Origin: Candidatus Aphodousia faecigallinarum
GTDB lineage: Bacteria; Pseudomonadota; Gammaproteobacteria; Burkholderiales; Burkholderiaceae_F
Direction of reading: 5' to 3'
Length of the DNA: 36,734 nt
Assembly (NCBI GenBank): GCA_018714755.1
Contig: DVMY01000046.1
Location: 1-36,734, forward strand
Shown here piece by piece: positions 30,922 to 36,627 of the stretch. The translations under genes and the position numbers were made by a program. Each line of letters begins with the position of its first letter. Positions within the stretch are counted from its first letter, which is position 1. The notes under the pieces are model-generated. The model ran no database searches, had not been told where the DNA came from, and was given only the letters and a program-made list of their open reading frames with translations.

Positions 30922-32256
30922 ATGAGTAATCGTTCTACTTGGGGTTCCCGTCTAGGTTTCGTTTTGGCTAGCGCCGGCGCGGCGGTTGGGTTGGGAGCCA
31001 TCTGGAAATTTCCTTATCTGGTTGGATCAAACGGCGGATCGGCATTTCTTTTCCCGTTTATTGTGCTCACCTTCACAATTGGACTGGTGCTGCTGATTGC
31101 TGAGTTGACCGTCGGACGCGCGGGCGCGGGTTGCATCGTGACCGCGTTTAGAAAACTTGGCGGCAAGCATTGGGGATGGGCCGGTTACCTTGGCGTGGTT
31201 ACAGGTTTTTTAATTCTGAGTTTTTACTCCGCTATCGGCGGCTGGACAATCGCCTACTTTGTCAACGCCTGCTTAGGCTCTGGCCTTGTTTCTGATCAGG
31301 CGGCCCTGGGTGCGCACTTTGCCTCCATTTCAGGCGATCCCGTTTTAGCTATCGGCTATCAAGCGCTCTTTCTAATCATTACTGCCTGGGTTGTCGCTTA
31401 CGGCGTGAGTAGCGGCATTGAGCGCCTGTCCAAAGTTCTCATGCCTCTTTTGTTTGTTCTGATGCTCATTATCATCGTTCGCTCGCTTTTCTTACCGGGC
31501 GCTTTTGAAGGTATTGAGTATCTCTTTAAGTGGAACCCTGAGGCTTTCACATTTGATGCGCTCTTGTCCACAATGGGCTTTACGTTTTTTTCTTTGTGCC
31601 TGGGCAGCGGCTGCATGCTCACATACGGAAGCTATCTTGACAGCAAAGTGGATCTTATCGGCTCTTCAGCTTGGATAGCCTTTTTGACCATTGTCAGTTC
31701 ACTTCTGGGCGCTTTGATGGTGATGCCTTCTGTTTTCGCTTTTGGATTGGATCCAAGCGCCGGCCCCGGTCTAACGTTTGTCACCATGCCGGCCATCTTT
31801 GCTCAAATGCCTTTAGGCAGCCTTTTTGCCATCTCGTTTTATGCCTGTCTTTTGGTCGCCGCTATCACCAGCTCCGTTTCCATGCTGGAAATTGACGTGG
31901 CGTTTTTGCATGACGAGTGGAAGTGGTCCCGTCCCAAAGCGGTTGTGGTGACTACTTTCGCCCTTATGTTTGTCGGCGCCTTCAGCGCCTTGTCATTTGG
32001 CCCTCTAGCGGACGATAAATGGCTTGGGAAAACATTCTTTGACTGGATTGATTACCTCACGAGCAACATCAGCCTGCCCATCGGCGGCTTAATGATTGCC
32101 GTACTCTCTAGCTGGGTGGCCTGGCCTCAAATTAAACCGTTTATCTCCGGCGACAAATCTCATCTACACTCTGAGAGTACTTATTCCGTGCTGCGCTGGA
32201 GCATCGCCATTTTTGCCCCGATTTTAGTGCTGACCGTTTTGATTTCCGGACTCTAA
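30922..32256 (+). CDS. Sodium-dependent amino acid transporter, NSS family
   Basis: WGSRLGFVLASAGAAVGLGAIWKFPYLVGSNGGSAFL, STMGFTFFSLCLGSGCMLTYGSYL, AAITSSVSMLEI: LeuT/TnaT-type NSS motifs. Confidence 0.95.
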   Translation: MSNRSTWGSRLGFVLASAGAAVGLGAIWKFPYLVGSNGGSAFLFPFIVLTFTIGLVLLIAELTVGRAGAGCIVTAFRKLGGKHWGWAGYLGVVTGFLILSFYSAIGGWTIAYFVNACLGSGLVSDQAALGAHFASISGDPVLAIGYQALFLIITAWVVAYGVSSGIERLSKVLMPLLFVLMLIIIVRSLFLPGAFEGIEYLFKWNPEAFTFDALLSTMGFTFFSLCLGSGCMLTYGSYLDSKVDLIGSSAWIAFLTIVSSLLGALMVMPSVFAFGLDPSAGPGLTFVTMPAIFAQMPLGSLFAISFYACLLVAAITSSVSMLEIDVAFLHDEWKWSRPKAVVVTTFALMFVGAFSALSFGPLADDKWLGKTFFDWIDYLTSNISLPIGGLMIAVLSSWVAWPQIKPFISGDKSHLHSESTYSVLRWSIAIFAPILVLTVLISGL

Positions 32257-32311: not shown

Positions 32312-33610
32312 TTATTCAGGTATTTCAACGTATCCGACACCATTGTCAATCCTGACAACCGTGTTGAGCTTTTCACTCAATGCACGGATCTTTTCCAACG
32401 TTTGAGTCGATCCGGACAACTGTGGCCAGCCTCGTTGAGCGCGGCTGCTGTGCTGTCCCAAGTCAACGGGGTAGAGCTTCACATCCTTCACCTTCCCGTC
32501 TTCAATGGCCCAAGAAGCAGCGAAAGCATCCCAAATGTCGGGCATCGCAGGATAACCTACTTTTCCGCCCTTGCTGCGATTGTCCATATACTCACCGACT
32601 CGCGTATCTTGTGACAGGCGCATCTTCACAAAAGCGTCATGAGGCTGAGCAGCGATTGTTTCGGTTTGGAAAATAAAATTGCCGAGACTATGGAAAATCA
32701 CGCCACCGTTGTAAACCTCAACTCCGCGAAGCATGTGGGGACCATGTCCGATCACCACATTGGCGCCGGCGTCAATCACTTTGTGCGTAATGGAGGAGAC
32801 AAACTCAGGAATACTGAAGAAATCCTTTCCGATCATCTCATGCGTATGCAGACTAAACAGCACCACATCGGCCTGCTTCTTGGCTTCACGGATTTCACCG
32901 AGAATCCGTTCCTCATCAATGGGGTCCGGAATGGTTTCAATAAAATTGCGATCATCCAAAACAAATTGATAGGAACCGAAATGCGCGATATTGTCGGGCA
33001 GTGGAGCCGCATACCCCAATTCAACAGTCAATTCCTGCATGTCGTTGATATGAAGTGATTTGGCAAGACGATTAACCGTGCTGAATGTTTCCTGGTCAAC
33101 GTGATAAATCGTTTTGTAGCGCAGAGGATTCAAACCGGGACGTCCACCCATTCTGAACCCTTGACCGCCCGCGGCTGCCGCCGGGTCGAAATTAGAAGTC
33201 GCGCCGATTAATGCGATGCGAGCGCCATTGGTTTCCAGGTAACATGCGTTGCTTGCTTCCTGAAGCGTCGCCCCTGTTCCGGCAAAAACCATGCTGCGTT
33301 CTTTTAAGTGCTTAATGGTTGCCAAGACACCTAAAGGACCAAAATCGCCTGAGTGATTGTTAGCGGTATTAAACAGGTTGAAGCCATAGCGCTTCATGTC
33401 ATCGAGCATCTCCGGATCCGTCATGGCCCATGTGCCACCGCTTGCCGCGGCAGGGAAACCTTCACTATTGTGGAAAGTCATTTCCAAATTGGCAAAGCGC
33501 ACATCATGAGATTCAATAAGCTGCTTTAACGGCTCAAACCCTGGATGCCCCTGATCGGGTAAACGGCGAGTAATAAAGCTGTCACCGGTGGCAATAAAAG
33601 TTGTCTTCAT
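32312..33610 (-). CDS. CapA-family protein (PGA_cap metallophosphatase-like)
   Basis: TTFIATGDSFITRR, FANLEMTF, NLFNTANNHSGDFG, VVLFSLHTHEM, GANVVIGHGPHMLRGVEVYNGGVIFHSLGNFIFQ. Confidence 0.9.
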   Translation of the reverse strand: MKTTFIATGDSFITRRLPDQGHPGFEPLKQLIESHDVRFANLEMTFHNSEGFPAAASGGTWAMTDPEMLDDMKRYGFNLFNTANNHSGDFGPLGVLATIKHLKERSMVFAGTGATLQEASNACYLETNGARIALIGATSNFDPAAAAGGQGFRMGGRPGLNPLRYKTIYHVDQETFSTVNRLAKSLHINDMQELTVELGYAAPLPDNIAHFGSYQFVLDDRNFIETIPDPIDEERILGEIREAKKQADVVLFSLHTHEMIGKDFFSIPEFVSSITHKVIDAGANVVIGHGPHMLRGVEVYNGGVIFHSLGNFIFQTETIAAQPHDAFVKMRLSQDTRVGEYMDNRSKGGKVGYPAMPDIWDAFAASWAIEDGKVKDVKLYPVDLGQHSSRAQRGWPQLSGSTQTLEKIRALSEKLNTVVRIDNGVGYVEIPE

Positions 33611-33750
33611 GGCAGGATCTCCTATAACACCACATTTATTATCCTCTGTTTCTGGCGCAGTGCAATAGTTATTTTCGCCGAGCGTTATATAGATAAAGTT
33701 GACTAGTTAAAACCTACGAAAAAAACAGAAAATGATATGAGCGTGATAAC

Positions 33751-33894
33751 ATGATCAAATGCGGTCGCCTTACAAAGGGTGGCTGACCGCGCCTAGGTTG
33801 CCGCTTAAGCAACCAACCGTAAAAATCGGGCTGCGCTCCCTTTCCTTTTCATTTATTTGCGCAGAATCGAACCTAAAACAAAGGAAAAGGCAAT
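33751..33894 (+). promoter_or_regulatory. Structured 5' leader of ABC operon; candidate cis-regulatory RNA
   Basis: Hairpin 33761-33790 (GCGGTCGCC...GGCTGACCGC), hairpin 33796-33814 (GGTTGC-CGCTTAA-GCAACC), helix CTGCGC 33831-33836 / GCGCAG 33859-33864, and CCTTTCCTTT 33839-33848 complementary (1-nt bulge) to the Shine-Dalgarno AAAGGAAAAGG 33880-33890. Confidence 0.5.
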
Positions 33895-34881
33895 ATGAAA
33901 TTCGGCAAACTCACTTTGGCTGCCGCCGCGGCAGCTACCCTCTTGGCATTGAGCGGTTGTGGAGAACAATCAGACAGTGCCGCCCCTCAATCAAAAGATG
34001 TGCCTGTATTGGGCATTGTTCAACTAGTGGAACACCCCGCGCTGGATGAGGCCAATCGTGGCATCGTGGACGCCATTAAGGCTCGAGGTCTCAAAGTTGA
34101 GTTTGACCAACAAAACGCGCAAGCAGATCAATCCAATCTCGGCAACATTGCTCAGCGTTTTGTCAGCCAACAGTATCCTTTGATTTTCGCAATCGCGACA
34201 CCCGCCGCACAAGTAGTCGCCAACGCTACGGATAAAACACCTATTGTCGCCACGGCTGTGACCGATTTTGAAGTGGCTAAACTTGTCAAGTCCAATAAAA
34301 AACCTCAAACCAACGTCACAGGTTCCTCTGATCTCAATCCCGTCGCTGAACAAGTTAAGCTTATGCTTGAGCTCGTTCCCAATGCGAAACGCATCGGCAC
34401 GATTTACAACAGCTCCGAGATTAACTCCCAATTTCAAGCTCAGATTCTGAAAGAAGAATTGCAAAAACGCGGACTGACCTTAGTTGAACTGACCGTGTCT
34501 TCTGTCAATGACGTTCAACAAACCGCGCAAAGCATGATCGGTAAAGTGGATGTCATTTACGTCCCCACTGACAACATTATCGCATCAGCGATGCCTGTTC
34601 TCACCAAAATCACCACGCCCGCCGGCATCGGTGTCATCACCGGTGAAGAAGGCATGCTCAAAGGTGGCGGCTTAGCCACTGTCGGAGTGGATTACTACAA
34701 CCTTGGTCAAATCGCGGGTAATATGGGAGCCGATATTTTGGAAGGTAAAGCCAAGCCTCAAGACATGGCGATTCGATATCAAACAGAATTCAAATCAAAG
34801 ATAAACGCGACGGTCGCCGAACAATTAGAAATTAAGGTTCCTGAATCCTTGGCTAAAATTGCTGAACTCGTGCGTTATTAA
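33895..34881 (+). CDS. ABC transporter substrate-binding lipoprotein (PF04392, TrpX-like)
   Basis: Signal and lipobox MKFGKLTLAAAAAATLLALSGC; VLGIVQLVEHPALDEANRGIVDAI, VYVPTDNIIASAMPVL-like motifs. Confidence 0.92.
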   Translation: MKFGKLTLAAAAAATLLALSGCGEQSDSAAPQSKDVPVLGIVQLVEHPALDEANRGIVDAIKARGLKVEFDQQNAQADQSNLGNIAQRFVSQQYPLIFAIATPAAQVVANATDKTPIVATAVTDFEVAKLVKSNKKPQTNVTGSSDLNPVAEQVKLMLELVPNAKRIGTIYNSSEINSQFQAQILKEELQKRGLTLVELTVSSVNDVQQTAQSMIGKVDVIYVPTDNIIASAMPVLTKITTPAGIGVITGEEGMLKGGGLATVGVDYYNLGQIAGNMGADILEGKAKPQDMAIRYQTEFKSKINATVAEQLEIKVPESLAKIAELVRY

Positions 34882-34939
34882 CTTATAGAAGCGAACTCCC
34901 GGCGTCTAATAAATGGCGCCGGGACAAAATCAGATAAAA

Positions 34940-35821
34940 ATGATTGATATTTTGATTCCCACCGTTGCCCAGGGACTTTTGTGGGCGCTTTTGGCTTTGG
35001 GCGTATATATAACCTTTCGCGTGCTCGACATCGCCGATCTGTCCGTGGAAGGTAGTTTCCCTCTGGGAGCGGCTGTTGCCGCTACCGCCCTTGTTAACGG
35101 TTACGGTATGATCCCCGCCTTTTTATTGGCTGCCGCTGCCGGTGCGTTAGCGGGCATAGTGACCGGTTTTTTCACCACCCAATTGCGCATTCCCGCGCTT
35201 TTAGCCGGCATTCTGACCATGATCGGGCTGTACTCAGTCAACCTGCATGTCATGGGAAAAGCCAACATTGCCCTATTGCGAGTCGAAACCATCTTTACCT
35301 ACACGGAATCTTTTGGGCTTAATTCCGCCTCTGCCATGCTGATTGTGGGTATTCTGGCTGCGCTTTTAGTCGGCGGTGTCATGTATTGGTTTTTTGGCAC
35401 AGAAATCGGCACGGCGATTCGTGCCACGGGATGCAATCCCCAAATGGCGCGAGCCCAAGGCGTCAACACCAATAAAATGATTCTGTTTGGCTTACTTATC
35501 AGCAACGCATTGGTGGCGCTTTCCGGCGCTTTGGTCGCGCAATCCAATGGTTTTGCCGATGTCGGCATGGGAACGGGCACCATTGTGATTGGCCTGGCCT
35601 CTGTAATTATCGGCGAGGTTCTTTTTGGAACAAAGAGCTTTAAAAATTGCCTTATTTCGGTGATTTTAGGCTCAATTGTGTATCGGCTGGTGATTGCCAT
35701 CGTGCTTCAACTCGGCATGCCGCCCAACGACCTGAAATTATTTACCGCCCTTTTAGTGGCCCTGGCCTTGTCCATGCCCCTTATTCGGGAAAAAATGCGG
35801 CAACGCCGCTCTCGCATTTAA
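34940..35821 (+). CDS. ABC transporter permease (TrpY-like)
   Basis: MIDILIPTVAQGLLWALLALGVYITFRVLDIADLSVEGSFPLGAAVAA...GTAIRATGCNPQMARAQGVNT. Start moved from 34913 to ATG 34940. Confidence 0.92.
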   Translation: MIDILIPTVAQGLLWALLALGVYITFRVLDIADLSVEGSFPLGAAVAATALVNGYGMIPAFLLAAAAGALAGIVTGFFTTQLRIPALLAGILTMIGLYSVNLHVMGKANIALLRVETIFTYTESFGLNSASAMLIVGILAALLVGGVMYWFFGTEIGTAIRATGCNPQMARAQGVNTNKMILFGLLISNALVALSGALVAQSNGFADVGMGTGTIVIGLASVIIGEVLFGTKSFKNCLISVILGSIVYRLVIAIVLQLGMPPNDLKLFTALLVALALSMPLIREKMRQRRSRI

Positions 35822-35838: not shown

Positions 35839-36627
35839 ATGCTTAAGATCGAAAATATTCATAAAACGTTTTTCCCCGGCAGTGTCAACGAAAAGCGTGC
35901 TCTTCAAGGGGTCTCTTTGACACTTAATGACGGTGATTTCGCTACGGTCATCGGTTCAAACGGCGCAGGGAAATCCACTTTGTTAAACGCGATCGCCGGA
36001 GCATTCCCCATTGATCAAGGGCGAATCAGCATTGACGGCGTTGATGTATCCCACATGCCGGAATATGAACGAGCGAAATATATTGGCCGCGTTTTCCAAG
36101 ACCCGATGAAGGGAACAGCAGGCAAAATGATGATTGAAGAAAATCTGGCGCTTGCCAGTTGGAGAGGACGGCGTCTTGGTTTAAATTGGAGTTTTAAGGC
36201 AGAAAGAACCGCTCAGTTTAAAGAAGCGCTCAAAGAGCTCGACCTGGGGCTTGAGGATCGTATGAGCGCTCATGTCGGCTTGTTGTCCGGCGGTCAAAGA
36301 CAAGCCGTCACACTTCTGATGGCGACACTGGTCAAACCCAAACTGTTGCTTTTGGATGAACACACGGCCGCCTTGGATCCTAAAACAGCGGAAAAGGTTT
36401 TACGACTGACAGAACGGTTGGTTAACGCGGATCGCCTCACAACACTTATGATCACGCACAACATGAGAGACGCCTTGCGTTTTGGCAATCGCCTCATCAT
36501 GATGCATCAAGGACGAATCGTGGTTGATGTCAAAGCTGAAGAGAAAGCCAATCTCACCGTGCCCGATCTACTAGGACTATTTGAAAAGGGCGCTGGCGTT
36601 GTTACAGACGAAATGCTTCTGTCTTAA
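35839..36627 (+). CDS. ABC transporter ATP-binding protein (TrpZ-like)
   Basis: MLKIENIHKTFFPGSVNEKRALQGVSL, GSNGAGKSTLLNAIAG, LLSGGQRQAVTLLMATLVKPKLLLLDEHTAALDP. Start moved to ATG 35839 (GGGAG upstream). Confidence 0.94.
   Translation: MLKIENIHKTFFPGSVNEKRALQGVSLTLNDGDFATVIGSNGAGKSTLLNAIAGAFPIDQGRISIDGVDVSHMPEYERAKYIGRVFQDPMKGTAGKMMIEENLALASWRGRRLGLNWSFKAERTAQFKEALKELDLGLEDRMSAHVGLLSGGQRQAVTLLMATLVKPKLLLLDEHTAALDPKTAEKVLRLTERLVNADRLTTLMITHNMRDALRFGNRLIMMHQGRIVVDVKAEEKANLTVPDLLGLFEKGAGVVTDEMLLS

Follow-up and report, generated by a model that had tools for sequence, protein, structure and literature searches.

A structured leader RNA of 132 nt (positions 33761-33892) was found 5' of the substrate-binding-protein gene of an ABC importer operon in Candidatus Aphodousia faecigallinarum, and there is very little doubt that it is a genuine cis-regulatory RNA. 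On balance we favor the view that it acts as a cis-acting translational switch on this importer, which is predicted to transport an aromatic amino acid, most likely tyrosine. All coordinates refer to the window, i.e. the whole stretch of DNA that was analyzed (positions 1 to 36,734 of the forward strand of contig DVMY01000046.1, from the 1.5-Mb draft genome G000). The genus of this genome is referred to as g1 and the second leader-bearing genus as g16.

Distribution and architecture of the leader

The leader is present in 12 genomes from two Sutterellaceae genera, always before the same substrate-binding-protein gene, and the leader-bearing relatives comprise Parasutterella secunda, Candidatus Aphodousia and uncultured Duodenibacillus/Sutterellaceae. 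Within g1 it was found in all six genomes that have this gene. Mean identity within g1 is 71% for the -10 element plus leader and 64% for the early coding sequence, while the 140 nt further upstream reach 50%, about the value of shuffled sequence (49%). A covariance model made from the six g1 leaders alone recovered five g16 leaders (E 3e-7 to 2e-13), all of them 5' of the same gene, and the twelfth leader (G068), which was not used in model building, was recovered by the core model (E 1.5e-6). At this last locus (L090, G068:C109:360-2630) two substrate-binding-protein genes lie in tandem and the leader core is located between them, before the second.

The gene occurs without the leader in other genera of the family as well as in the g16 genomes G023 and G066. 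Beyond the family, no convincing leader was detected among 399 genomes of the order and 369 of the class (samples partly overlapping), and no copies were found before other genes. When 84,980 species were scanned for the exact pattern, ten Sutterellaceae loci and one Paenibacillus match were returned; the latter and a match in G676 were judged to be due to chance. The same applies to weak model matches before leuS, efp and sodB-like genes (L054, L055, L056; E above 1e-3) and in G217, where only the Shine-Dalgarno (SD) sequence is alike and a consistent leader is lacking. At the efp-like gene (elongation factor P by eye; L055/L085, G001:C58), weak matches of both models coincide with a P4-like stem and ACAAAGGA, which is probably chance, though it was found twice.

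The elements of the leader are as follows (all on the + strand):

33744-33752, +, probable extended -10 element TGATAACAT, with the ATG of a mini-ORF (33751) inside
33761-33790, +, P1 hairpin of 9 bp, 100% paired in the six g1 leaders, with both sides changed in 4 pairs
33774-33779, +, AAAGGG in the loop of P1, a look-alike of the SD (decoy), fully complementary to CCCUUU of the P4 loop
33791-33794, +, GCCU, proposed 5' strand of the closing helix P0, directly after P1 in 11 of 12 leaders
33796-33814, +, P2 hairpin, whose sequence varies while its structure is retained
33817-33829, +, P3 (CCG/CGG), 100% paired in 11 leaders, 3' strand shared with the P4 extension
33826-33870, +, P4 (33831-33836/33859-33864) with its extension UCGG/UCGA (33826-33829/33867-33870)
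33837-33843, +, P4 loop tract UCCCUUU, able to pair with the SD or with the decoy in the P1 loop
33867-33885, +, near-invariant tail UCGAACCUAAAACAAAGGA, containing the SD AAAGGA, conserved in 11 aligned leaders
33888-33891, +, AGGC, located between SD and start codon and present in 11 of 12 leaders, proposed as the 3' strand of P0

Single-sequence folding of the window leader (-45.9 kcal/mol, z = -1.2) was not decisive, and the case for structure therefore rests on comparison. In the six g1 leaders, 100% of the cells of P1, P4, its extension and the pseudoknot are paired, six pairs are changed on both sides, and the covariation score was reached by none of 500 shuffles, while every slid register falls to 34-44% paired. 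Covariation was seen in P1, P2 and P4. P1 (strands 33761-33769/33781-33790, loop of 11 nt) is likely located at the 5' end of the transcript. In P2 (strands 33796-33801/33809-33814) the helix sequence is almost wholly replaced between genomes with pairing retained, and P3 changes from CCG/CGG in g1 to CCA/UGG in g16. P4, formed by CTGCGC and GCGCAG, is maintained across 11 leaders via UA, GC and CG exchanges, and its extension is 100% paired in the same number. As P3 and the P4 extension use one common strand, they cannot form together. The original prediction had described the two hairpins at 33761-33790 and 33796-33814 and the CTGCGC/GCGCAG stem and had proposed a comparative alignment as a check: every element was found where it had been placed, and both conservation and covariation of the helices were detected, but the mutually exclusive pair of P3 and P4 extension had been overlooked.

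The GCCU/AGGC helix was found in most single-sequence minimum-energy folds. AGGC is kept despite variable spacing, compared to a background of 3 in 32 open reading frames of the window. Since both strands are invariant, covariation lends no support to P0. This pairing could close the ribosome site further, an element that had been missing from the predicted SD-hiding pseudoknot.

Because the motif precedes one gene in two genera, a protein regulator could also explain it. The leader would then be bound by an autoregulator, or by an RNA-binding protein responsive to amino acids, which would lock or open the SD structure, and no small molecule would touch the RNA. Such a site would fit the very narrow distribution and the single target gene, and the invariant single-stranded stretches suit protein recognition as well as an aptamer. 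However, no candidate regulator gene lies at a conserved position beside the operon, and exclusive helices are typical of self-contained switches. We regard a protein site as somewhat unlikely.

Probable promoter, mini-ORF and likely mode of control

In nine leaders (six g1, G034, G065 and G063), the sequence TGWTAACAT precedes P1 by exactly 8 nt. A variant, TGTTAAGAT, is found at 7 nt in G067 and at about 8 nt in G068, and G061 has no -10 element of the TGWTAACAT type. A promoter consensus scanner did not list a sigma-70 pair at this site. Judged by its conserved sequence and spacing, this is a probable extended -10 element with transcription starting at P1; the promoter had been missed in the earlier description of the leader. 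No terminator-like site was found in the leader, which makes control at translation the natural reading, and we hold translational control to be quite likely.

Control coupled to an upstream open reading frame, or attenuation via a leader peptide, had been proposed on the basis of an 11-codon mini-ORF. The frame exists in this genome, but it carries no Tyr, Phe or Trp codon and is not conserved in length or sequence (the G004 version consists of two codons, Met-Thr-stop). Moreover, its ATG lies inside the conserved -10 element and thus upstream of the probable start site. A conserved leader peptide with regulatory codons was not found among the leaders, and the lack of a terminator-like site likewise speaks against attenuation. 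The mini-ORF is best regarded as an accident and this mode of control as highly improbable; of the earlier suggestion of a translational riboswitch or uORF-coupled control of amino-acid uptake, the translational part is supported and the other part is abandoned.

A T-box reading uncharged tRNA, as described for trpXYZ in Streptococcus, was considered as well. P1 of g1 contains AAAGGGUGGN..ACCGCG, similar to the T-box string, and AAAGGGUGGCUGACCGCG (33774-33791, P1) resembles this string, AGGGUGGNACCGCG; however, this resemblance is explained by the covariation of P1 and is absent from g16. Relatives of TrpX do use Trp T-boxes (PMC9382623). Nevertheless, a search of the window leader with E values up to 10 returned no T-box from Rfam, and a Stem I with a specifier would have no space if transcription starts at P1. 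Such a Stem I with a specifier codon was not found, the sequence upstream of the -10 element being unconserved. A T-box identity was therefore rejected, and we give it almost no credence.

Two possible partners for the P4 loop

The tract UCCCUUU at the start of the P4 loop is invariant in g1, G034 and G065 and reads UCCUUU in G067 (nine leaders in total), while the remainder of the loop is divergent. Its core CCCUUU (33838-33843) is complementary to the SD AAAGGA (33880-33885), and the tract can pair with AAAGG of the SD over 5-7 bp, with only 5 bp in g1. In single sequences, this pairing mostly does not stand out from what composition alone would give, because the loop is pyrimidine-rich. Stronger evidence for SD pairing comes from the invariance of the tract and from a compensatory exchange in G061, where loop CCUUCU stands opposite SD AGAAGG (p about 0.02). 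The complementarity between P4 loop and SD that had been predicted for this genome is thus retained, whereas the longer duplex with a 1-nt bulge is specific to it.

The prediction had identified the anti-SD tract but not the SD look-alike further upstream, which can compete for the same loop. All six g1 leaders carry this decoy, AAAGGG, in the loop of P1. In G034 and G065 it has moved to the apical loop of P2, where AAAAAGGG can form 8 bp with CCCUUUUU (shuffle p 0.005-0.007), and in G067 the P2 apical loop harbors GAAAGG with the compensated complement CCUUUC. In each of the nine leaders that have both, the decoy forms a more stable duplex with the tract than the SD does. These patterns suggest that decoy and SD are two competing partners of one loop. 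Neither partner is universal, as G063 and G068 have no tract and no look-alike and G061 keeps the SD pairing only, with no usable decoy.

The higher stability of the decoy pairing in 9 of 9 leaders and the short SD pairing in g1 would also suit a loop-loop kiss that is a structural element of the fold, with SD pairing incidental and expression set by GCCU/AGGC or by RNA stability. Against this stands G061, in which loop and SD compensate each other where no decoy can be used, and we consider an incidental role of the SD pairing unlikely.

In the switch that we propose, kissing of the P4 loop with the look-alike loop would leave the SD free and the importer would be made. Upon binding of the signal, the SD would be paired with the P4 loop and a GCCU/AGGC helix would form, so that the ribosome site is closed. 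This signal, probably the amino acid that is imported or a metabolite related to it, would probably be bound via the near-invariant core AAAUYGGAC...GAYCGAACCUANAA.

The predicted importer, its likely substrate and known systems

The operon downstream of the leader consists of three genes:

33895-34881, +, ABC substrate-binding protein, predicted tyrosine-type (PF04392, E 1.2e-75; CD0873, E 5.9e-64; Glu251, Tyr267)
34913-35821, +, ABC permease (PF02653, E 1e-28)
35839-36627, +, ABC ATPase (PF00005, E 6.8e-29)

The closest solved relative of the binding protein is CD0873, followed by proteins of S. pneumoniae (Trp-bound) and V. cholerae (Phe-bound). CD0873, a lipoprotein of Clostridioides difficile (PDB 6hni), binds tyrosine; its Glu263 touches the tyrosine hydroxyl and its Tyr279 excludes tryptophan (PMC6816091). 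The window protein belongs to the same substrate-binding-protein family and shares these specificity residues as Glu251 and Tyr267, which are the same in all family homologues examined. With 319 bits it stays below the 390-bit cut-off of the TrpX equivalog NF041285. Hence the transporter looks tyrosine-type rather than TrpXYZ, and the operon most likely encodes an aromatic amino-acid ABC importer for tyrosine. The earlier designation as a TrpXYZ-like operon holds as far as an aromatic amino-acid ABC system is concerned, but the two residues and the score argue against tryptophan as the likely substrate.

Genes of the sodium:neurotransmitter symporter (SNF) family are found beside the ABC operon in several species (window 30922-32256, L061, L066 and L071); up to three surround one operon and g1 operons are often SNF-flanked. 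These transporters are likely further amino-acid importers. Divergent from the ABC operon, a CapA/PGA_cap-like protein is encoded at 32312-33610 on the minus strand; among NCBIfam models it matches best MslH, the lasso-peptide C-terminal Trp epimerase (E 4.8e-70, but 236 bits vs. a cut-off of 700 bits).

Neither TyrA (PF02153) nor PheA (PF00800) was detected in any of the six g1 genomes that have both leader and transporter (completeness of G003, G004 and G008: 97-98%), G001 showing a sub-threshold TyrA match only. Conversely, tyrA and pheA are both present in the g1 genomes G002 and G005, in which the transporter is absent. AroA occurs in all of these genomes, and G003 and G008 also have TrpB. 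With tyrA/pheA undetected and aroA present, the leader carriers of g1 look like tyrosine/phenylalanine auxotrophs, and synthesis has apparently been swapped for import within the genus (G000-G008), a contrast that may reflect a single loss event. This loss had not been part of the earlier idea of amino-acid uptake. In the g16 genomes G034, G065 and G067, a distance of about 10-15 kb separates the operon from tyrA/pheA, and since leader-bearing g16 genomes mostly retain tyrA, leader and auxotrophy are not tightly linked.

As in riboswitches, a conserved and covarying structure is found in a 5' leader. The sequences contain complementarities, partly compensated, through which mutually exclusive structures affecting the SD could form. 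Rfam 15 placed no RNA family over the window leader or its 11 relatives at the gathering threshold, and relaxed searches of three leaders gave chance matches only, in agreement with the initial impression that no known riboswitch class applies. Whether the leader senses a small molecule directly we judge to be an even question. That the ligand is an aromatic amino acid is possible but doubtful, and it is a rather unlikely, tentative proposal that the leader represents a natural riboswitch class sensing tyrosine or phenylalanine directly and acting through competition between the true SD and an SD look-alike, in an upstream hairpin loop, for a single anti-SD loop.

Amino acids other than glycine, lysine and glutamine are monitored via T-boxes, attenuation or proteins. 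According to a 2022 review, validated amino-acid riboswitches exist only for these three, with none for aromatic amino acids (PMC9971707). Our literature search found no tyrosine, phenylalanine or aromatic amino acid riboswitch and nothing joining Sutterella with a riboswitch and structured RNA. A positive ligand test would therefore be notable, and a compact leader on a tyrosine-type importer in apparent auxotrophs makes direct RNA sensing of an aromatic amino acid testable. If true, a look-alike that vies with the real SD for a single loop would make an economical switch, and it would also be explained how common gut bacteria regulate their uptake of aromatic amino acids.

The leader resembles the Trp T-box of Streptococcus trpXYZ in being a candidate leader control of a related ABC importer, but it has neither the specifier nor the terminator of that 461-nt tRNA-sensing transcription attenuator (PMC9382623). 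With the lysine, glycine and glutamine riboswitches it would have in common RNA control of amino-acid genes, from which it differs in having no Rfam match. Translational riboswitches of the preQ1-II and SAM-II type have an H-type pseudoknot at the SD, formed by a stem whose loop reaches the SD over an A-rich stretch of a short UTR, and they switch translation initiation on or off. The leader is similar in that pairing of this kind is possible for its P4 loop, likewise over an A-rich stretch of a short UTR, and in the proposed ON/OFF control of translation initiation; unlike these classes, it has no Rfam match and a different conserved sequence, and carries the additional hairpins P1 and P2 and a competing SD look-alike.
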